Below are positions 11,405-30,907 of a stretch of 34,438 bases of DNA, piece after piece (position 1 is the first letter of the stretch; each line of letters starts with the position of its first letter). The notes beneath the pieces are model-generated. The model was not told the DNA's origin, made no database searches, and was given only the letters and a program-made list of their open reading frames with translations. The position numbers and the translations under genes are program-made. The DNA comes from Candidatus Ventricola gallistercoris (GTDB taxonomy: Bacteria; Bacillota; Clostridia; Christensenellales; Aristaeellaceae): assembly GCA_018716525.1 (NCBI GenBank), contig DVJV01000184.1, forward strand, positions 1 to 34,438. The letters run 5' to 3'.

Positions 11405-11899
11405 ATGGAACAAAAGGGAAAGAGTGGGGCCATCCGCCTGACAAACAAGACGGCCATCGCCCTGCGCAGAAGCGCTGCCAACGTGCGCCACGCGTGGCTG
11501 GTGACGGCAGCCGTGCTCACGCTTCTATTGGCGTGCCTGGCGGTCTATCTGGGCATGCGCTGGCTGCATGCTGTGCCGGTGGTGGTGGCGGTGACGGTGC
11601 TGCTGGATGCGGTCATCGGCTTTCACGCGCGCAACCGCTATTTGCAGATCGTGGGACAGGCGATCTGCACCGAGGCGGCCGCGCGAAACATGCGTTCGGG
11701 CTCGGAGAGCGAACGCATCCGCCGGGCCGCGCGCGATCTGATGCGCGTCAAGCAGGATGTGCTGGAGGGGGCCGCCGCGCCCAAAGCCGGTGTGGATACC
11801 CGCGAGTGGAGCGATGTGCTCGGCGTGGGGGCCAGACCCCCGCACCGGCGCCGCCGGCAGGCTGGGTTTGAGGTCATTGAGAGCGAAAAGGTCAGGTGA
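11405..11899 (+). CDS. hypothetical membrane protein, 164 aa
   Basis: Two hydrophobic segments followed by a basic cytoplasmic-type tail; overlaps the next start. Confidence 0.65.
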   Translation: MEQKGKSGAIRLTNKTAIALRRSAANVRHAWLVTAAVLTLLLACLAVYLGMRWLHAVPVVVAVTVLLDAVIGFHARNRYLQIVGQAICTEAAARNMRSGSESERIRRAARDLMRVKQDVLEGAAAPKAGVDTREWSDVLGVGARPPHRRRRQAGFEVIESEKVR

Positions 11900-13953
11900 A
11901 ACCGTTTTTCATGGCGTCGATTGCAATTGCGGTGCTGTTCGTCTGCGGCGGCGTGCTGGCGGCGCGTCTGCTGCTGCCGGGCAAAAGAAAAGGGGTGCAG
12001 GCGTGCCTGGGCGGCGCGCTGGGGCTGCTTTTGAGCGTGCAGATCCCGGCGGTGTGGTTCTCGCTGCTGTTTTTGTGCGGCGGCGTGATGATGGTGCGCT
12101 TCCTGCTTCCGGGCAAGAGCCCGCTTGTGCGGGTGTGGCTGGGTTTGGCGCTGGGCGTGCTGCTGGAAATGCAGCTCCCGGCGCTGTTTGCCTATGTGTT
12201 TGATTTTTCCATTCGCGCGCATCAGGCGGCGGCGCTTCTCATGACGGCGGCCGTTGCGCTGTGCGCATATCTGCGCGACAGGCGAGCGCCCTGCAAAATG
12301 AGCGCCTCCGACCGCAGGCAGCTTGCGGTGATGGCCGCAGTCTGCCTGCCGCTTGCGGTGCTCTCGGCCTACCTGCAGTACACGCACATGATCATGCCCG
12401 CCGCCGACGGGTCGCTTTGGTGCGGGCAGTCCACATACGGCGATCTGTGCATGCACCTGGCGTTTGTCACGTCGATGGAGAACATGGCCTTCCCCCCCAC
12501 CTATAATCTGCTCTCCGGCACATCGCTCTCCTATCCCTATCTGACCGACTCGCTGAGCACCAGCCTCTACATGCTGGGCATGCCGCTCAATCTCTCGCTG
12601 GTCGTGCCCGGCACGCTGCTGATGGTCATGACCTATGCGGGCTACATGCTCCTGGCTCAGCAGATCCTGGGCGGACGGTACAAGGCGGTGGCTGTAGCGG
12701 CGCTGCTGTTCTTCTTTAACGGCGGCCTGGGCTTCCTCTATGACTTTGACATGGCGTTTCGGGACGGGTTTGCCCGGGTGAAGGAGATCTTCACCGGCTA
12801 TTACCTCACCCCCGCCAATCAGCCCGCCCTCAACCTGCGCTTTTCCAACGTCATCGTGGATCTGATGATCCCCCAGCGCTCGCTGCTGGGCGGCTGGGCG
12901 CTGGGCATTCCCGCGCTGTATCTGCTCATCAGCGCCACGCGCGAAAAGTCCATGCGCCAGACGGTCATGCTGGGGCTGTGGGCCGGGGCGCTGCCGCTGG
13001 TGCACACCCACACCTTTCTGGCGCTCGGGCTGTTTTCCGGCGGCTATCTGCTCGGCAGGTTCATCATAAACCCGCAGGACAGGCGCTTTTTGCTGCGCAT
13101 GGCGGGCACATACCTGGCTATCACGCTCGTGCTGGCGCTGCCGCAGGTGCTCTTCAACGCCGTCAAGCAGACCGTGGAGGGCGGCTCGCTGCGCTTTCAG
13201 TTCAACTGGGTCAACAACAGCGGCGGCAACGGGCTGATCGACGGCTACTTCTGGTTCTGGATCAAGAATGCGGGATTGCCGTTCATTCTCATGCTCTGCG
13301 CGTGCCTGAACGCGCGGCGGCGCGGCTATCTGGATATCGTGATGGGCATGGCGGCCATCTTTATCGTCGCCGAGACGGTGATCTTCCAGCCCAACGAGTA
13401 CGACAACAACAAGCTCTTTTACATCTGGTACATGTTTGCGGTGATCCTGGCCGCGGACTACGGCTCCATCCTCATGCAGCGGCTGGCGGGGCTGCGCGGA
13501 CGGGTGCTGCTGTGCGCGCTGTTTCTGTGGGCGAGCATGTTTTCCGGGGCGCTGTCCATCGGCAGGGAAGTGGTCTCGGGCTACCAGCTCTTTTCCAGGA
13601 GCGCGGTGGAGGCAGGCGACTGGATTCGCGAAAACACCGATCACGACGATGTGTTTCTCACCGGGCAGCAGCACATCAATCCGGTGTGCTCGCTGGCGGG
13701 CCGCCAGATTTTGTGCGGAAGCGACCTGTATGTATACTTCCACGGGCTTGATTACAGCGTGCAGGCGCAGGATTGCAAGCGCTTTTACGAGAACCCGCGC
13801 GAAAATGCGGATGTGCTTTCCCGCTACGGCGTCGATTACATCTATGTGAGCGACTACGAGCGCTCGGAGTTCCTCGTGGACACGGCGGCGCTGTCCGAGC
13901 TGTACACGGTGGTCTATGAAAACGCCGATGTGACCATCTACCGCGCAGACTGA
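11896..13953 (+). CDS. polytopic membrane protein, GT-C-glycosyltransferase-like
   Basis: GTG start; many TM segments, large loops with STYGDLCMHLAFVTSM and C-terminal soluble part; N-terminal internal repeat. Confidence 0.7.
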   Translation: MKPFFMASIAIAVLFVCGGVLAARLLLPGKRKGVQACLGGALGLLLSVQIPAVWFSLLFLCGGVMMVRFLLPGKSPLVRVWLGLALGVLLEMQLPALFAYVFDFSIRAHQAAALLMTAAVALCAYLRDRRAPCKMSASDRRQLAVMAAVCLPLAVLSAYLQYTHMIMPAADGSLWCGQSTYGDLCMHLAFVTSMENMAFPPTYNLLSGTSLSYPYLTDSLSTSLYMLGMPLNLSLVVPGTLLMVMTYAGYMLLAQQILGGRYKAVAVAALLFFFNGGLGFLYDFDMAFRDGFARVKEIFTGYYLTPANQPALNLRFSNVIVDLMIPQRSLLGGWALGIPALYLLISATREKSMRQTVMLGLWAGALPLVHTHTFLALGLFSGGYLLGRFIINPQDRRFLLRMAGTYLAITLVLALPQVLFNAVKQTVEGGSLRFQFNWVNNSGGNGLIDGYFWFWIKNAGLPFILMLCACLNARRRGYLDIVMGMAAIFIVAETVIFQPNEYDNNKLFYIWYMFAVILAADYGSILMQRLAGLRGRVLLCALFLWASMFSGALSIGREVVSGYQLFSRSAVEAGDWIRENTDHDDVFLTGQQHINPVCSLAGRQILCGSDLYVYFHGLDYSVQAQDCKRFYENPRENADVLSRYGVDYIYVSDYERSEFLVDTAALSELYTVVYENADVTIYRAD

Positions 13954-13975: not shown

Positions 13976-13997
13976 GGGGCGGCGCTTTTGCCGCCCC
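13976..13997 (+). terminator. GC-rich hairpin after the GT-C-like gene
   Basis: ggggcggc-gctttt-gccgcccc, no T tract. Confidence 0.45.
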
Positions 13998-14160
13998 TCA
14001 GTCTGTCGAAAAAGTCCGCCTGCGGCGTTCTTTTTCGAAGTTTGCGCTGTTTCCCTCTCGCCCCGCATGGGGCTCCCGGGCGGGAAACTGCGCAAGGAAG
14101 CCTTGCACAGCGAGGCCCGAATCCGCCGCACATGTCGCCGGATTCGGATTGCATTTGGAG
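13998..14160 (-). repeat. dispersed intergenic repeat, copy A (minus orientation, truncated at one end)
   Basis: tcagtctgtcgaaaaagtccgcctgcggcg...gaatccgccgcacatgtcgccggattcggattgcatttggagg; matches copies C and D. Confidence 0.85.
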
Positions 14161-14169
14161 GGATGGCGC

Positions 14170-14397
14170 ATGGTGGAGCGGTTTTTGCGCTACTCGCTGG
14201 AGCGGGAGCGCAAGATCTGCGTGGTGCTGCTTAGCGGCGGGGCGATGAAAAAGACCAATCTGCAAGTCACATCCCTGGATGCGGACGGCGCGGGTTTCAC
14301 GGCGCGGCTGCCGGGGCGCAAGCGCGACGTGCACCTGAGCACAGCAGACGTGCTGACGGCGGCGTATGCGCGCGGGGATCAGGGCGAACTGGAGTGA
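14170..14397 (+). CDS. hypothetical protein, 75 aa
   Basis: MVERFLRYSLERERKICVVLLSGGAMKKTNLQVTSLDADGAGFTARLPGRKRDVHLSTADVLTAAYARGDQGELE; GGAGG 8 nt upstream. Confidence 0.65.
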   Translation: MVERFLRYSLERERKICVVLLSGGAMKKTNLQVTSLDADGAGFTARLPGRKRDVHLSTADVLTAAYARGDQGELE

Positions 14398-18228: not shown

Positions 18229-18287
18229 CGCGCTGCGCGCAAAAAATATAGAAAAAACCCGCCTTTCGCATTTTGCGTCAGGCGGAT

Positions 18288-18370
18288 TCAGACTGTCAAA
18301 AAACTTCTTTGGGTGGTTTGGAGGGCCACAGCCCTCCAAGTGCAAGGCGAATCCGGCGACATGCGCGGCG
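18288..18370 (+). repeat. dispersed intergenic repeat, copy B (right part truncated)
   Basis: tcagactgtcaaaaaacttctttgggtggtttggagggccacagccctccaagtgcaaggcgaatccggcgacatgcgcggcg. Confidence 0.8.
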
Positions 18371-18378
18371 CAGGGCGC

Positions 18379-23852: not shown

Positions 23853-25750
23853 TGGGCCGCAATCCCAATGCCGGAAAGCCCGGCGCAAAGAACCCGGGGC
23901 GCACGCTCAAGCGGATCTTCGCGGAGATCTTTCAGCGCTACAAGGTGCACTGCCTGGCGGTTGTGATCTGCCTGATGATCAGCGCATTTGCCAACGTGCG
24001 CGGCACGCTGTTTTTGCAGACGCTGATTGACGACTACATCCTGCCGATGACCACGCGGGAAAACCCCGATTTTGGCCCGCTGGCCATCGCGATCGGCGGC
24101 ATTGCGCTGATCTACATCCTGGGCGCGTTTTCATCCTGGTTGTACAACTACCTGATGATCTTTGTCTCTCAGGGCACGCTCAAAAACCTGCGTATCAAGC
24201 TGTTTGAAAAGATGGAGCGCCTGCCCATCCGCTACTTTGACACGCACAAGCATGGCGACGTGATGAGCGTGTACACCAACGACATCGACACCATGCGCCA
24301 GATGATCTCCCAGTCGATGCCGCAGCTCATCTCCAGCGTGATCACGATTGCCAGCATCATCACATCGATGGTCATCCTCAATGTGCCGCTGATGATCATC
24401 ACATTGATGATGGTGGCCATCACCCTGCGCATTTCGGTGCACAAGATTCAAAACGCGGGCCGCTTCTTCGTCAAGCAGCAGATGGACCTGGGCAAGGTCA
24501 ACGCCTTCATCGAGGAGATGATGGACGGCCAGAAGGTCGTCAAGGTCTTCTGCCACGAGCGCAAGAACATCGAGGACTTCAACGCCCTCAACGACGAGCT
24601 GCGCGACAGCGCCTTCAACGCCAACCGCATTGCCAACACCATCATGCCCATGACCATGGCGATGGGCAACCTGAGCTATGTGATCTGCGCGGTGGTGGGC
24701 GGCTTGCTGGCCACCCAGGGCTATCTGGGGCTGACCATCGGCACGCTGGTGTCGTTTTTGACGCTGAACAAGAGCTTCAACCAGCCGATCAACCAGGTAT
24801 CCCAGCAGTCAAACTCCATCATCATGGCGCTGGCCGGCGCGGAGCGCGTGTTCACCCTGCTGGATGAAGAGCCCGAGGTTGACGACGGCTATGTGACGCT
24901 CGTCAACGTGCGCCGCCAGCCGGATGGCACGTTCACTGAGTGCAAGGAGTGCACGCATCTGTGGGCGTGGAAGCATCCGCACCGGGATACGGGCGAGGTC
25001 GAGTATGTGGAGCTCAAGGGCGACATCGTGATGGATCACGTGGACTTTGGCTACACGGACGAGAAGATCGTGCTGCACGACATCAACCTCTATGCGACGC
25101 CGGGCCAGAAGATCGCGTTTGTCGGCTCCACGGGCGCGGGCAAGACGACGATCACCAACCTGATCAACCGCTTCTACGACATTCAGGATGGCAAGATCCG
25201 CTACGACGGCATCAACATCAACAAAATCTGCAAGGACGACCTGCGCCGCTCGCTGGGCATCGTGCTGCAGGATACGCACCTGTTCACCGGCACGGTCATG
25301 GACAACATCCGCTACGGCCGCCTCGACGCCACCGACGAGGCGTGCATCGAGGCCGCCAAGCTGGCCAATGCCGACGGCTTCATCACCCGCCTGCCGGATG
25401 GATACAACACCATGATCACCGGCGACGGCGGCAACCTCTCGCAGGGCCAGCGCCAGCTGCTGGCCATTGCCCGCGCGGCGGTGGCCGATCCGCCCGTGCT
25501 GATTCTCGACGAGGCGACGTCCTCCATCGATACCCGCACCGAATCGCTGGTGCAGGCCGGCATGGATTCGCTGATGAAGGGCCGCACGACGTTTGTCATC
25601 GCGCACAGGCTCTCCACCGTCAAGAACAGCGACTGCATCATGGTTCTGGAGCAGGGCCGCATCATCGAGCGCGGCACGCACGACGAGCTGCTCGAGCAGC
25701 ACGGCAAGTACTACCAGCTCTACACGGGCGATTTCTCCGACAACAACTGA
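23849..25750 (+). CDS. ABC exporter half-transporter, canonical catalytic subunit
   Basis: TMD plus NBD: GSTGAGKTTITNLINRFY, NLSQGQRQLL, LILDEATSSIDTRTE, FVIAHRLSTV. Confidence 0.94.
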   Translation: MMGRNPNAGKPGAKNPGRTLKRIFAEIFQRYKVHCLAVVICLMISAFANVRGTLFLQTLIDDYILPMTTRENPDFGPLAIAIGGIALIYILGAFSSWLYNYLMIFVSQGTLKNLRIKLFEKMERLPIRYFDTHKHGDVMSVYTNDIDTMRQMISQSMPQLISSVITIASIITSMVILNVPLMIITLMMVAITLRISVHKIQNAGRFFVKQQMDLGKVNAFIEEMMDGQKVVKVFCHERKNIEDFNALNDELRDSAFNANRIANTIMPMTMAMGNLSYVICAVVGGLLATQGYLGLTIGTLVSFLTLNKSFNQPINQVSQQSNSIIMALAGAERVFTLLDEEPEVDDGYVTLVNVRRQPDGTFTECKECTHLWAWKHPHRDTGEVEYVELKGDIVMDHVDFGYTDEKIVLHDINLYATPGQKIAFVGSTGAGKTTITNLINRFYDIQDGKIRYDGININKICKDDLRRSLGIVLQDTHLFTGTVMDNIRYGRLDATDEACIEAAKLANADGFITRLPDGYNTMITGDGGNLSQGQRQLLAIARAAVADPPVLILDEATSSIDTRTESLVQAGMDSLMKGRTTFVIAHRLSTVKNSDCIMVLEQGRIIERGTHDELLEQHGKYYQLYTGDFSDNN

Positions 25751-25781
25751 CGCATCCCCTTCCCCGCCTTGCGGCGGGAAA

Positions 25782-25975
25782 ACAAAAAACCTCTTTGGGC
25801 GGTTTGGAGGGCCGCAGCCCTCCAAATGCCATCCGAATCCGGCGACATGTGCGGCGGATTCGGGCCTTGCATAGCAAGGCTTCCTTACGCTGTTTCCCGC
25901 CCGGGAGGTCTGAAAGACCGAGAGGGAAACAGCGCAATCTTCGAAAAAGGACGCCACAGGCGAACTTTTTCGACA
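25782..25975 (+). repeat. dispersed intergenic repeat, copy C
   Basis: caaaaaacctctttgggcggtttggagggccgcagccctccaaatgcc...cgaatccggcgacatgtgcggcggattcg...cgaactttttcgaca. Confidence 0.88.
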
Positions 25976-25981
25976 CGTAGC

Positions 25982-26020
25982 AGCGCGGCGCTTTCCGCAA
26001 TGATCGGAAAGCGCCGCGCT
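25982..26020. terminator. 16-bp perfect stem hairpin 3' of recA, abutting repeat copy C
   Basis: agcgcggcgctttccg-caatgat-cggaaagcgccgcgct. Confidence 0.6.
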
Positions 26021-26036
26021 TGCGTATGCGGGATTC

Positions 26037-27164
<1,128 letters not shown>

Positions 27165-27207
27165 GCTCGTTCCTTTCCGGGGAAATCCCCCACGCCCTTT
27201 GAGTAAC

Positions 27208-27238
27208 TTATCCACATTTGCGAAGAAATTGTGGATAA
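27208..27238. promoter_or_regulatory. inverted pair of perfect DnaA boxes between cinA and recA
   Basis: TTATCCACA (27208-27216) and TGTGGATAA (27230-27238), 13-bp spacer. Confidence 0.6.
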
Positions 27239-28499: not shown

Positions 28500-29078
28500 T
28501 CACCTGGCGCCTCCCAACACGCTGCGGTTCTGCCAGACATATTCGCCCATCGAATAGAGCGTCATCACGGCCGTCGCAAACGTGAGCAATCCCGCGATGT
28601 ATCCGCCGGATACAAGCGTGAGCAGCATGGCCAGGATCATCTGGAGCACCGTCTTGATCTTGCCGCTCATGCCCGCGGCGATCACGTGGCCCTGCTCCAC
28701 CGCGCAAAGCCGCAGGCCGGAGACCACGAACTCCCGCGCGATGAACACGATGCACGCCACCACGTTGAGCCTGCCCATCGCGGCGAGCATGATGAACGCC
28801 GTGTGCGTGAGCAGTTTATCGGCAATGGGGTCCATGAATTTGCCGAAGTTGGTGATCAGGTGCCGCTTGCGCGCGATTTTGCCGTCAAACAGGTCGGTCA
28901 GCGAGGCGGCGGCGAACACCGCCAGCGCCAGCACGGACAGCAGCTTGCTGTTTTGCGAGAACCACAGCAAAACCAGATACAGGGGCACCAGCGCCACGCG
29001 CAAGAGCGTCAGCCTGTTGGGCAGGTTCAGGCTCATGAATGCGCGGATGAGCCCATCGAGCGGATGTTTCCTGTTCAT
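28500..29078 (-). CDS. pgsA: CDP-diacylglycerol-glycerol-3-phosphate 3-phosphatidyltransferase
   Basis: LNLPNRLTLLRVALVPLYLVLL...DLFDGKIARKRHLITNFGKFMDPIADKLL: CDP-alcohol phosphatidyltransferase motif. Confidence 0.94.
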   Translation of the reverse strand: MNRKHPLDGLIRAFMSLNLPNRLTLLRVALVPLYLVLLWFSQNSKLLSVLALAVFAAASLTDLFDGKIARKRHLITNFGKFMDPIADKLLTHTAFIMLAAMGRLNVVACIVFIAREFVVSGLRLCAVEQGHVIAAGMSGKIKTVLQMILAMLLTLVSGGYIAGLLTFATAVMTLYSMGEYVWQNRSVLGGAR

Positions 29079-30391
29079 ATGCGCTCCCCCATCAGGTCAT
29101 AGGTCCGTGCGCCGGTGATGCGCACGTTTACGAATGTGCCGGTTTCGCACGGGGTGTCCGAGTGGAAATAGATGTTGCCATCCGTCTCCGGCGCTTCAAA
29201 CTCGCTGCGGCCCACGTAGCGGTCGCCGCGCTTTCTTTCCACCAGCACGCGGCAGGTGCTGCCCACGCGCGCTTTGTTGCATTTGAGCGAAATGCCGTGC
29301 TGAAGCGTCATCAGCGCGTCATAGCGCGCCTGCTTGATTTCCTCGGGAATCTGCCCGGGCATCTTCTCGGCGCGCGTGCCCTCCTCCGGGGAGAACATGA
29401 ACGCGCCCATGCGGCCGAACTTCGTCTCGCGCACGAAATCCATCAGCTCGTCAAAATCCTCGTCCGTCTCGCCCGGGAAGCCGACCATCAGCGTCGTGCG
29501 CAGCATCATGCCGCGCTCGCGGAACATGCGGCACACCTTGCGGATATGCTCGGAGGTATCCCGGCGGTTCATATCCTTGAGGATGTGCTGGCTGATGTGC
29601 TGCATGGGCAGATCCAGGTATTTGCACACGTTGTCGTGCCGGGCGATGACATCCAGCAGCCGCTCATCCACCCGCTCAGGGTAGCAATACAGCGTGCGCA
29701 GCCACGAGACGCCCTCGATCCCGGCGATCTCCTCGATCAGCTCGGGCAGGCGGCTTTCCTTGCCGCCGTCGCTGCCGTAGCGCGTGTTATCCTGCGCGAT
29801 GAGCGTAAACTCCCGCACGCCCTTTTCGGCCAGCGTGCGCACCTCCGAGAGGATGTCCTCCTTCGGACGGCTGCGGTAGCGGCCGCGGATGAGCGGAATG
29901 GCGCAGTAGGAGCACCAGTTGTCGCACCCCTCGCCGATGCGCACATAGGCGCTGTAGCGCGGGGTGGTCAGCACGCGGCCGTATTCAAAGAACGTGCCGT
30001 CGTCGCCGGTATACACGGGCCGCGCGCCGGCGCCGGCCTCCTCGATCGCCTGGCAGAGCTTCTGATACTCGTTCACGCCCATGATGGCATCCACCTCGGG
30101 CATCTCCTCGCGGATAGCCTCCGGGTAGCGCTGGGCAAAGCAGCCGGTGGCCACCAGCAGGCGGCACTTGCCGCTTTTTTTGTACTCGGCCATTTCAAAC
30201 AGGGTGGAGATGGCCTCTTCCTTGGCGGACTGGATGAAGCCGCATGTGTTGACGATGATGACCTCGGCCTTCGCCGGATCGGAGACAATCTTGTAGCCGT
30301 TTGCCCTGAGCACGCCGAGCATCTGCTCGGAATCAATGCGGTTTTTGCTGCATCCCAGGGAGATGAGCCCAACAGTTGTAGCCAATTTCAA
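29075..30391 (-). CDS. rimO: ribosomal protein S12 methylthiotransferase RimO
   Basis: TVGLISLGCSKNRIDSEQML, radical-SAM CxxxCxxC (GCDNWCSYCAIPLIRGRYRSR), C-terminal TRAM-like region. Confidence 0.95.
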   Translation of the reverse strand: MKLATTVGLISLGCSKNRIDSEQMLGVLRANGYKIVSDPAKAEVIIVNTCGFIQSAKEEAISTLFEMAEYKKSGKCRLLVATGCFAQRYPEAIREEMPEVDAIMGVNEYQKLCQAIEEAGAGARPVYTGDDGTFFEYGRVLTTPRYSAYVRIGEGCDNWCSYCAIPLIRGRYRSRPKEDILSEVRTLAEKGVREFTLIAQDNTRYGSDGGKESRLPELIEEIAGIEGVSWLRTLYCYPERVDERLLDVIARHDNVCKYLDLPMQHISQHILKDMNRRDTSEHIRKVCRMFRERGMMLRTTLMVGFPGETDEDFDELMDFVRETKFGRMGAFMFSPEEGTRAEKMPGQIPEEIKQARYDALMTLQHGISLKCNKARVGSTCRVLVERKRGDRYVGRSEFEAPETDGNIYFHSDTPCETGTFVNVRITGARTYDLMGERI

Positions 30392-30468
30392 GCTCCTTTT
30401 GGTCTGCCGCGCACGGGGGCCCGCGCGGCCCCAAAGCGGCGGTATATTTCAGATATTCATACGAATGC

Positions 30469-30497
30469 ATTGTACCATGCCCACCCGTCAAATACAA
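30469..30497 (-). promoter_or_regulatory. promoter-like element P2 for rimO operon
   Basis: Minus strand TTGTAT-N17-TACAAT. Confidence 0.5.
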
Positions 30498-30531
30498 GAA
30501 AGTCGGGAGCAATTGCCGACTGGTCCATTTG

Positions 30532-30559
30532 ATTATACCACATCCGCACCAAAATACAA
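30532..30559 (-). promoter_or_regulatory. promoter-like element P1 for rimO operon
   Basis: Minus strand TTGTAT-N16-TATAAT. Confidence 0.5.
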
Positions 30560-30597: not shown

Positions 30598-30631
30598 AAA
30601 AAAGCCGCCTTCCCTTGAGCGGGGAGGCGGC
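30598..30631 (-). terminator. intrinsic terminator
   Basis: Minus strand gccgcctccccgctcaagggaaggcggc followed by tttttt. Confidence 0.8.
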
Positions 30632-30842
30632 TCAGGCTGTCAAAAAACCTCTTTGGGTGGTTTGGAGGGCCGTAGCCCTCCAAATGCAATCCGAATCCGG
30701 CGACATGTGCGGCGGATTCGCAAGCTTGCGCAGCAAGGTTTCCTTGCGCCGTTTCCCGCCCGGGAGCCCCATGGGGGGGCGAGAGAAAAACGGCGTAAAT
30801 CTCGGAAAAGGACGCCGTAGGCGGACTTTTTCGACACGCTGA
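30632..30842 (+). repeat. dispersed intergenic repeat, copy D (most complete)
   Basis: tcaggctgtcaaaaaacctctttgggtggtttggagggccgtagccctccaaatgcaatccgaatccggcgacatgtgcggcggattcg...ggcggactttttcgacacgctga. Confidence 0.9.
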
Positions 30843-30907
30843 CGGATGCCGCAGGCATCCGTTTCCGGGATTGACGGTATTGCCCTGAAGGCCCTCCGGG
30901 CCGCGCT

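Follow-up and report, generated by a model that had tools for sequence, protein, structure and literature searches.

Most transposases generate target duplications of a fixed length, and group IIC introns, which insert at terminator hairpins by RNA-based homing and carry a conserved domain V, generate no target duplication. The IS1182-family element IS1272 targets stem-loops, including confirmed terminators, and the stem-loop is deleted with no target duplication (PMC5678879, PMC4923244). Duplication of the hairpin has been drawn only as a hypothetical "pathway b" (PMC5678879). According to a review, as relayed in the IS1272 papers, some members of the IS1182 family target palindromes (PMC5678879, PMC4923244). 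Small non-coding relatives of an IS1182-family element are represented by the MITEs attributed to ISMac2 in Methanosarcina acetivorans, which are 160-169 bp long, with 7-14 copies and ends of 25-26 bp (PMC3852290).

Here we analysed a 34,438-nucleotide stretch of DNA from Candidatus Ventricola gallistercoris (the window), in which an initial annotation had pointed out four copies of a structured intergenic repeat. The repeat is an element of about 209 bp with no coding capacity. Sequence comparisons show it to be a mobile, MITE-like element that inserts at palindromes and duplicates them whole, and it is very probably non-autonomous and moved by an IS1182-family transposase supplied in trans.

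Results

Anatomy of the element and its copies in the window

All four repeat copies (A to D) were found in the window at their reported places and could be aligned over their lengths (Table 1). The shared stems are as the initial annotation described them, and its view of C and D as nearly full length and of A and B as cut at opposite ends holds. The element does not end at TGTC, as had been assumed: its true ends are CAGRCTGTCAAAAAAC ... CTTTTTCGACAYGCTG, with CAG...CTG at the tips. The "TCAG-N2" motif reported in front of TGTC was seen, but it takes in the outermost bases of the terminal repeat (CAGRCTGTC / CAGYGTGTC), which places TGTC 5 nt inside. The terminal inverted repeats (CAGRCTGTCAAAAAAC / CAGYGTGTCGAAAAAG) are 16 bp long and identical at 12 of 16 positions. 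Copy D folds into five hairpins, the last of which is subterminal and bears the right terminal repeat, an arrangement also found at the ends of IS1182-family elements. A module equivalent to hairpin 4, GCCGCCCGGGAG...CGAGAGGC, is carried by the genome G034. No Rfam family matched the window or nine related loci at gathering thresholds.

Table 1. Positions in the window of the element copies, the hairpins within copy D and the hairpins next to the copies
Feature	Position	Strand	Basis
Copy A, right part of the element, cut inside hairpin 1	13999..14162	-	alignment; inverted-repeat arms common to C and D
Terminator-type hairpin GGGGCGGCGCTTTTGCCGCCCC beside the end of copy A, 1-nt spacer	13976..13997	.	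sequence
Copy B, left part of the element, cut inside hairpin 2	18289..18371	+	alignment, end motif
Hairpin CCCGCCTTTCGCATTTTGCGTCAGGCGGA close to copy B on its left	18258..18286	.	sequence
Copy C, nearly full length, mutated at both tips	about 25780..25980	+	alignment
Hairpin CCCGCCTTGCGGCGGG left of copy C	25763..25778	.	sequence
Hairpin with 16-bp stem right of copy C	25982..26020	.	sequence
Copy D, complete element, CAGGCTGTCAAAAAAC ... CTTTTTCGACACGCTG	30633..30841	+	alignment, fold
Hairpin AGCCGCCTTCCCTTGAGCGGGGAGGCGGCT, abuts D on the left	30603..30632	.	sequence
Hairpin ACGGATGCCGCAGGCATCCGT, unlike the one on the left, abuts D on the right	30842..30862	.	sequence
Hairpin 1 of D (TTTGGAGGGC CGTA GCCCTCCAAA), conserved core	30660..30684 (approximate)	+	covariation
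Hairpin 2 of D (CCGAATCCG G CG ACATGTG CG G CGGATTCG), conserved core, loop ACATGYG	30690..30721 (approximate)	+	covariation
Hairpin 3 of D	30722..30742 (approximate)	+	fold; equivalent stem in another copy is the nested-insertion target (L042)
Hairpin 4 of D (GTTTCCCGCCCGGGAG ... CGAGAGAAAAAC)	30743..30798 (approximate)	+	fold
Hairpin 5 of D, subterminal, bears the right terminal repeat (GGAAAAGGACGCC...GGCGGACTTTTTC)	30801..30834 (approximate)	+	fold

Copy D lies between two minus-strand genes, which corrects the initial annotation. The gene on its left encodes a radical-SAM methylthiotransferase (29075-30391, minus; UPF0004, Radical_SAM and TRAM), and the plus-strand ORF at 29162-30532, antisense to this Pfam-supported gene, was rejected as spurious. 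Copy A has the end motif CAGTCTGTCGAAAAA at 13999, and the hairpin next to it is downstream of a plus-strand ORF (11896-13953). The remnant of hairpin 1 in copy A has GGAGGG at its end, and a short ORF follows a few bases downstream (14149-14397 region; ATG at 14170, MVERFLRYSLERERKICVVLLSGGAMK...), so that the remnant may now act as the ribosome-binding site of that ORF. The hairpin to the right of copy C is likely the terminator of recA (26037-27215, minus). In this part of the window (25750-27215), cinA lies beside recA and an ABC transporter lies left of copy C. The ABC transporter adjoins recA in no relative with a readable flank, and a rearrangement or a chimeric join of contigs may lie at copy C. 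The recA locus was considered as an orthologous empty site, given that the relatives have no element there, and was rejected: the neighbour gene differs, and the site is therefore no clean test. An intact target duplication was found at none of copies A to D. The window copies are ordinary members of the family, decayed or recombined, and the mechanism put forward below is read from the sequences of copies elsewhere in the genome and in its relatives.

The genome is a 2.37-Mb MAG of 253 contigs with a completeness of 84.6%. When it was scanned for further copies, a 22-nt core, with at most 3 mismatches allowed, gave 139 matches (66 + 73), compared with 0 for a reversed-pattern control, and the exact end motif CAGNNTGTCRAAAAA gave 179 (85 + 94), compared with 0 + 0. 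A search with a 190-bp query yielded at least 45 matches, with 40 of the 209 first-look candidates scored. These counts lie well above chance and put the number of copies at about 140. Many contigs begin or end inside the element, indicating that it also fragments the assembly.

Insertion into hairpins and their duplication

We collected 54 non-redundant full-length copies with both flanks from 60 search loci and 40 fetched regions, and scored the left and right flanks of each copy against swapped flank pairs as the null. The scores of 26 copies exceeded the 99th percentile of this null, where about 0.5 would be expected. In 21 of the 54, the clear cases, an entire terminator-type palindrome is present on both sides of the element; at L111, for example, AGCGGAGGCGCCTTTTCCATTGGAAGGGCGCCTCCGCT is found both left and right of it. 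In these clear cases the duplications directly abut CAG...CTG, with a gap of 0 on the left in 19 and on the right in 16. They are 19 to 38 bp long, and longer palindromes go with longer duplications (correlation of the two lengths, Pearson r = 0.90, p = 4e-8, 21 clear cases): the palindrome is copied in full at insertion, and the duplication is therefore as long as the hairpin. Abutting hairpins were also counted whether or not they were duplicated: 35 of the 54 copies have one at the left end and 39 have one at the right, with a null of 1%. About half of the full-length copies have no duplication, and several, D among them, are flanked by two different hairpins. Such mixed copies could have arisen by recombination between copies or by chimeric assembly, either of which is expected to produce them when about 140 copies are present. 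At one locus (L013, G000 C104), the flanking hairpins share a stem and their loops are inverted relative to each other, so that one looks like a reverse-complemented version of its partner.

The genes around the element were called with a codon model trained on ORFs of the window, simple longest-ORF calling being misleading in this GC-rich genome. For 44 copies both neighbours were called, giving 32 co-directional, 10 convergent and only 2 divergent gene pairs, numbers that are approximate because the training set included the antisense ORF noted above. The orientation of the element relative to the flanking genes is unbiased (16 vs 16). A bias had been suggested by the side on which the T-run of the duplicated hairpins lies, and better gene calls gave it no support.

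Empty sites and a nested insertion

On contig C20 of the same genome, the order behind prfB is GGGCGGGCGGCTTCGCCCGCCC, element, GGGCGGGCGGCTTCGCCCGCCC, CTTTTTC and the next gene. In a sister species (G024), whose prfB flank is 94% identical, the same two genes enclose a single hairpin, GGGCGGGCGGTTGCGCCCGCCC-TTTTG / GGGCGGGCGGTTGCGCCCGCCCTTTTG, and no element. Other relatives likewise have no element behind prfB, and in several of them just one terminator-type hairpin is present at this place. A peptidyl-prolyl isomerase gene provides a second case: the element lies behind it in the window's own genome, where G024 and G001 have a single terminator. At L042 one copy is nested in hairpin 3 of another and hairpin 3 is duplicated, while other copies show the state before insertion.

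Behind prfB in G001 (L238, C284) we also observed a different insert of about 135 bp (CAGGCCGCCGGCAAAACGG...) between two copies of the terminator hairpin. In the window's genome the element sits at this same terminator, and the insert is apparently an independent hit on one terminator.

The MITE/REP-like mobility that the initial annotation proposed is thus supported by the whole-hairpin duplications, the orthologous empty site and the nested insertion, and the element, whose copies are spread over the whole genome, does not occupy the same intergenic places in all relatives but is absent from them at the sites examined. The proposed preference for terminator neighbourhoods is borne out in a sharper form, with the hairpin itself being the target and being duplicated. 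As far as genomic sequences can show it, the element is mobile, sits in mostly terminator-like palindromes and duplicates the entire palindrome on insertion.

A candidate transposase

Two intact IS1182-family IS of the same genus, L134 (G014) and L136 (G027), are flanked by 25-bp direct duplications of a whole terminator hairpin, AAAAGGTGGGTTTTACCCACCTTTT and AGGCGCTTCCGCATGGGAAGCGCCT, respectively. The 16-bp ends of these elements (CAGACYGTMGACAAA-type) and of related ones match the closer end of the MITE at 9-14 of 16 positions, and the best of them (L137) matches the left end at 14/16 (shuffle p about 3e-4). As in the MITE, the IS1182-family ends of the genus carry subterminal hairpins. In G011, the right end of the core-bearing element L065 (CAAACCGTCGACAA) is identical at 13 of 14 positions to that of a resident IS1182 element (CAGACCGTCGACAA). 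The similar ends, the subterminal hairpins and the same whole-hairpin duplication point to an IS1182-type transposase as the likely mobiliser; if the mobility of the element is granted, we consider mobilisation by this family probable on these comparisons.

The strongest competitor is that the same hairpin-duplicating MITE is moved by a transposase outside the IS1182 family, either unrecognised so far or lost from the MAGs. In its favour, IS1182 transposase was undetected in 12 of the 15 genomes searched, although core copies or end motifs are present in most of them (G060-G064 and G034, for example, carry the element), and no autonomous element with the exact MITE ends (CAGACTGTCRAAAAAC) was found in the genome, among the IS1182 loci and in 8-kb neighbourhoods. 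MAGs, for their part, often lose multi-copy IS. The end motif, the subterminal hairpins and the unusual whole-hairpin duplication shared with the IS1182 elements of the genus argue against this competitor, which we regard as unlikely. The interior of the element had no homology to the IS1182 elements tested.

A covarying core in a wider family

A strict core pattern was matched at 37 loci. These belong to about a dozen MAGs of Clostridia, most of them recovered from the guts of ruminants and other animals. Within the same family, 7 of 300 genomes have the core, with very uneven copy numbers, and among 28 species of the genus close copies were present only in G024. More than 12 core-bearing copies in other species lie between duplicated hairpins of 18-36 bp. 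At L063 (G056), a core-bearing element is located at the 3' end of an apparent coding region, and its 31-bp duplication (CGGCAAGGAGATCCTTGCCAAGTACGGCATA) includes a palindrome. In some species the element is longer and modular, with additional stems (L068, L070, L075). In G034, the longer relatives L070, L073, L074 and L075 have extra stem-loops between the core and the GCCGCCCGGGAG hairpin, one such module being CGCCCGGAAA...CAGCG.

Hairpins 1 and 2 covary strongly across genera. Among 21 sequences, 14 of the 21 pairs changed on both sides (6 of 10 in hairpin 1 and 8 of 11 in hairpin 2) compared with 7.3 in shuffles, a level reached in 0 of 500; counted by cells, there were 64 both-side changes where 16 were expected. 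The shuffles leave relatedness in, and the pair count is robust to this in the tool's own trials. In the core alignment, 95% of the cells are paired, a percentage that leans in favour of the structure because the structure was read off the same sequences, and 31-47% are paired in slid controls. The core loops CGCA and ACATGYG are conserved. We also tried to identify the active strand from G-U versus A-C mismatches and abandoned the attempt, as the counts for hairpin 1 (21 vs 4) and hairpin 2 (7 vs 37, with subfamilies mixed) are contradictory.

These data bear on the structured RNA that the initial annotation had offered as an alternative, in which a non-coding RNA or a terminator/attenuator RNA family is kept for a job in the host and transposition is secondary. 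The structure is real, as the covariation indicates, and the fold z-scores (-3.8 and -4.3) and conserved loops fit such a role, but there is no sign of an RNA function: the element matches no Rfam family, has no preferred orientation, is associated with no single gene class that we noticed, and is distributed patchily, with 0 to about 140 copies among close relatives. We judge a host RNA to be quite improbable. Our best guess is that the core hairpins act at the nucleic-acid level in transposition. A more far-reaching version of this idea, which we put forward tentatively, is that the element did not arise from an IS by deletion and is instead a structured nucleic-acid parasite. Its core, which the IS1182 elements tested lack, would recruit or activate a hairpin-specific transposase as folded DNA or RNA, and insertion, guided by a cruciform, would copy hairpins whatever their length.

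Other explanations fare worse. An element of the REP/RAYT type, dispersed by a Y1 (HUH) tyrosine transposase, would also be short, palindromic, intergenic and present in high copy number. Transposition of the IS200/IS605 and REP types, however, uses single-stranded DNA and leaves no target duplication, and the paired terminal inverted repeats and direct duplications of 19-38 bp contradict this origin, making it highly improbable. Ordinary terminators or assembly artefacts resembling a repeat can be dismissed, since despite possible mis-joins at the many contigs ending inside the element, its boundaries inside hairpins are exact, the empty site is in another species' assembly and independent copies occur in about a dozen species.

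Discussion

For a MITE-like element mobilised by an IS1182-family transposase, the following course of insertion can be envisaged. The target palindrome would form a cruciform by extrusion, or a hairpin when replication or transcription exposes it. An IS1182-family DDE transposase supplied in trans would then join the two 3' ends of the element to the 5' feet of the hairpins on both strands, and gap repair would copy the hairpin to both sides of the element. With a hairpin kept on each side and a T-run on the outer copy, termination probably survives the insertion, which would then do almost no harm, and about 140 copies could accumulate. Insertion into terminators with restoration of the terminator would thus explain the high copy number at little cost.

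A duplication whose length follows the secondary structure of the target is strong natural evidence for recognition of a hairpin or cruciform and for joining at its feet. About 20 clean cases, together with the empty site and the nested insertion, make the model of structure-directed transposition developed for IS1272 directly testable, and the "duplication" branch of an IS1272-type model is shown by these sequences to occur in nature. The covarying core kept between genera raises the question of why selection should act on the interior of a MITE.

Relation to known systems

Like BOX, RUP and SPRITE of Streptococcus pneumoniae, the element is structured, intergenic and of high copy number, and its copies insert into one another; in the accessible part of the source no whole-hairpin duplication is described for those repeats (PMC10969869). 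With group IIC introns it shares terminator hairpins as insertion sites, and an assignment to these introns was rejected on the lack of an Rfam match in the window and nine related loci and on the presence of target duplications. It resembles the ISMac2 MITEs in being small and non-coding and in its likely link to IS1182 elements, but for those the accessible text gives duplications of 4 or 0 bp and describes neither hairpin targeting nor a conserved core (PMC3852290). The similarity to IS1272/TnSha1 of staphylococci goes further: both target hairpins, often terminators, by structure rather than sequence and with no preference for orientation (PMC5678879, PMC4923244), and both are linked to IS1182-type transposases, the element through the similarity of its ends to those of IS1182 members of this genus. 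With IS1272/TnSha1 the hairpin is lost in whole or in part and no duplication results; the element described here is non-coding, 209 bp long and flanked by duplications of the whole hairpin. Palindrome targeting by some IS1182 members is known, whereas duplication of the whole hairpin differs from the deletion seen with IS1272, the best-studied case.
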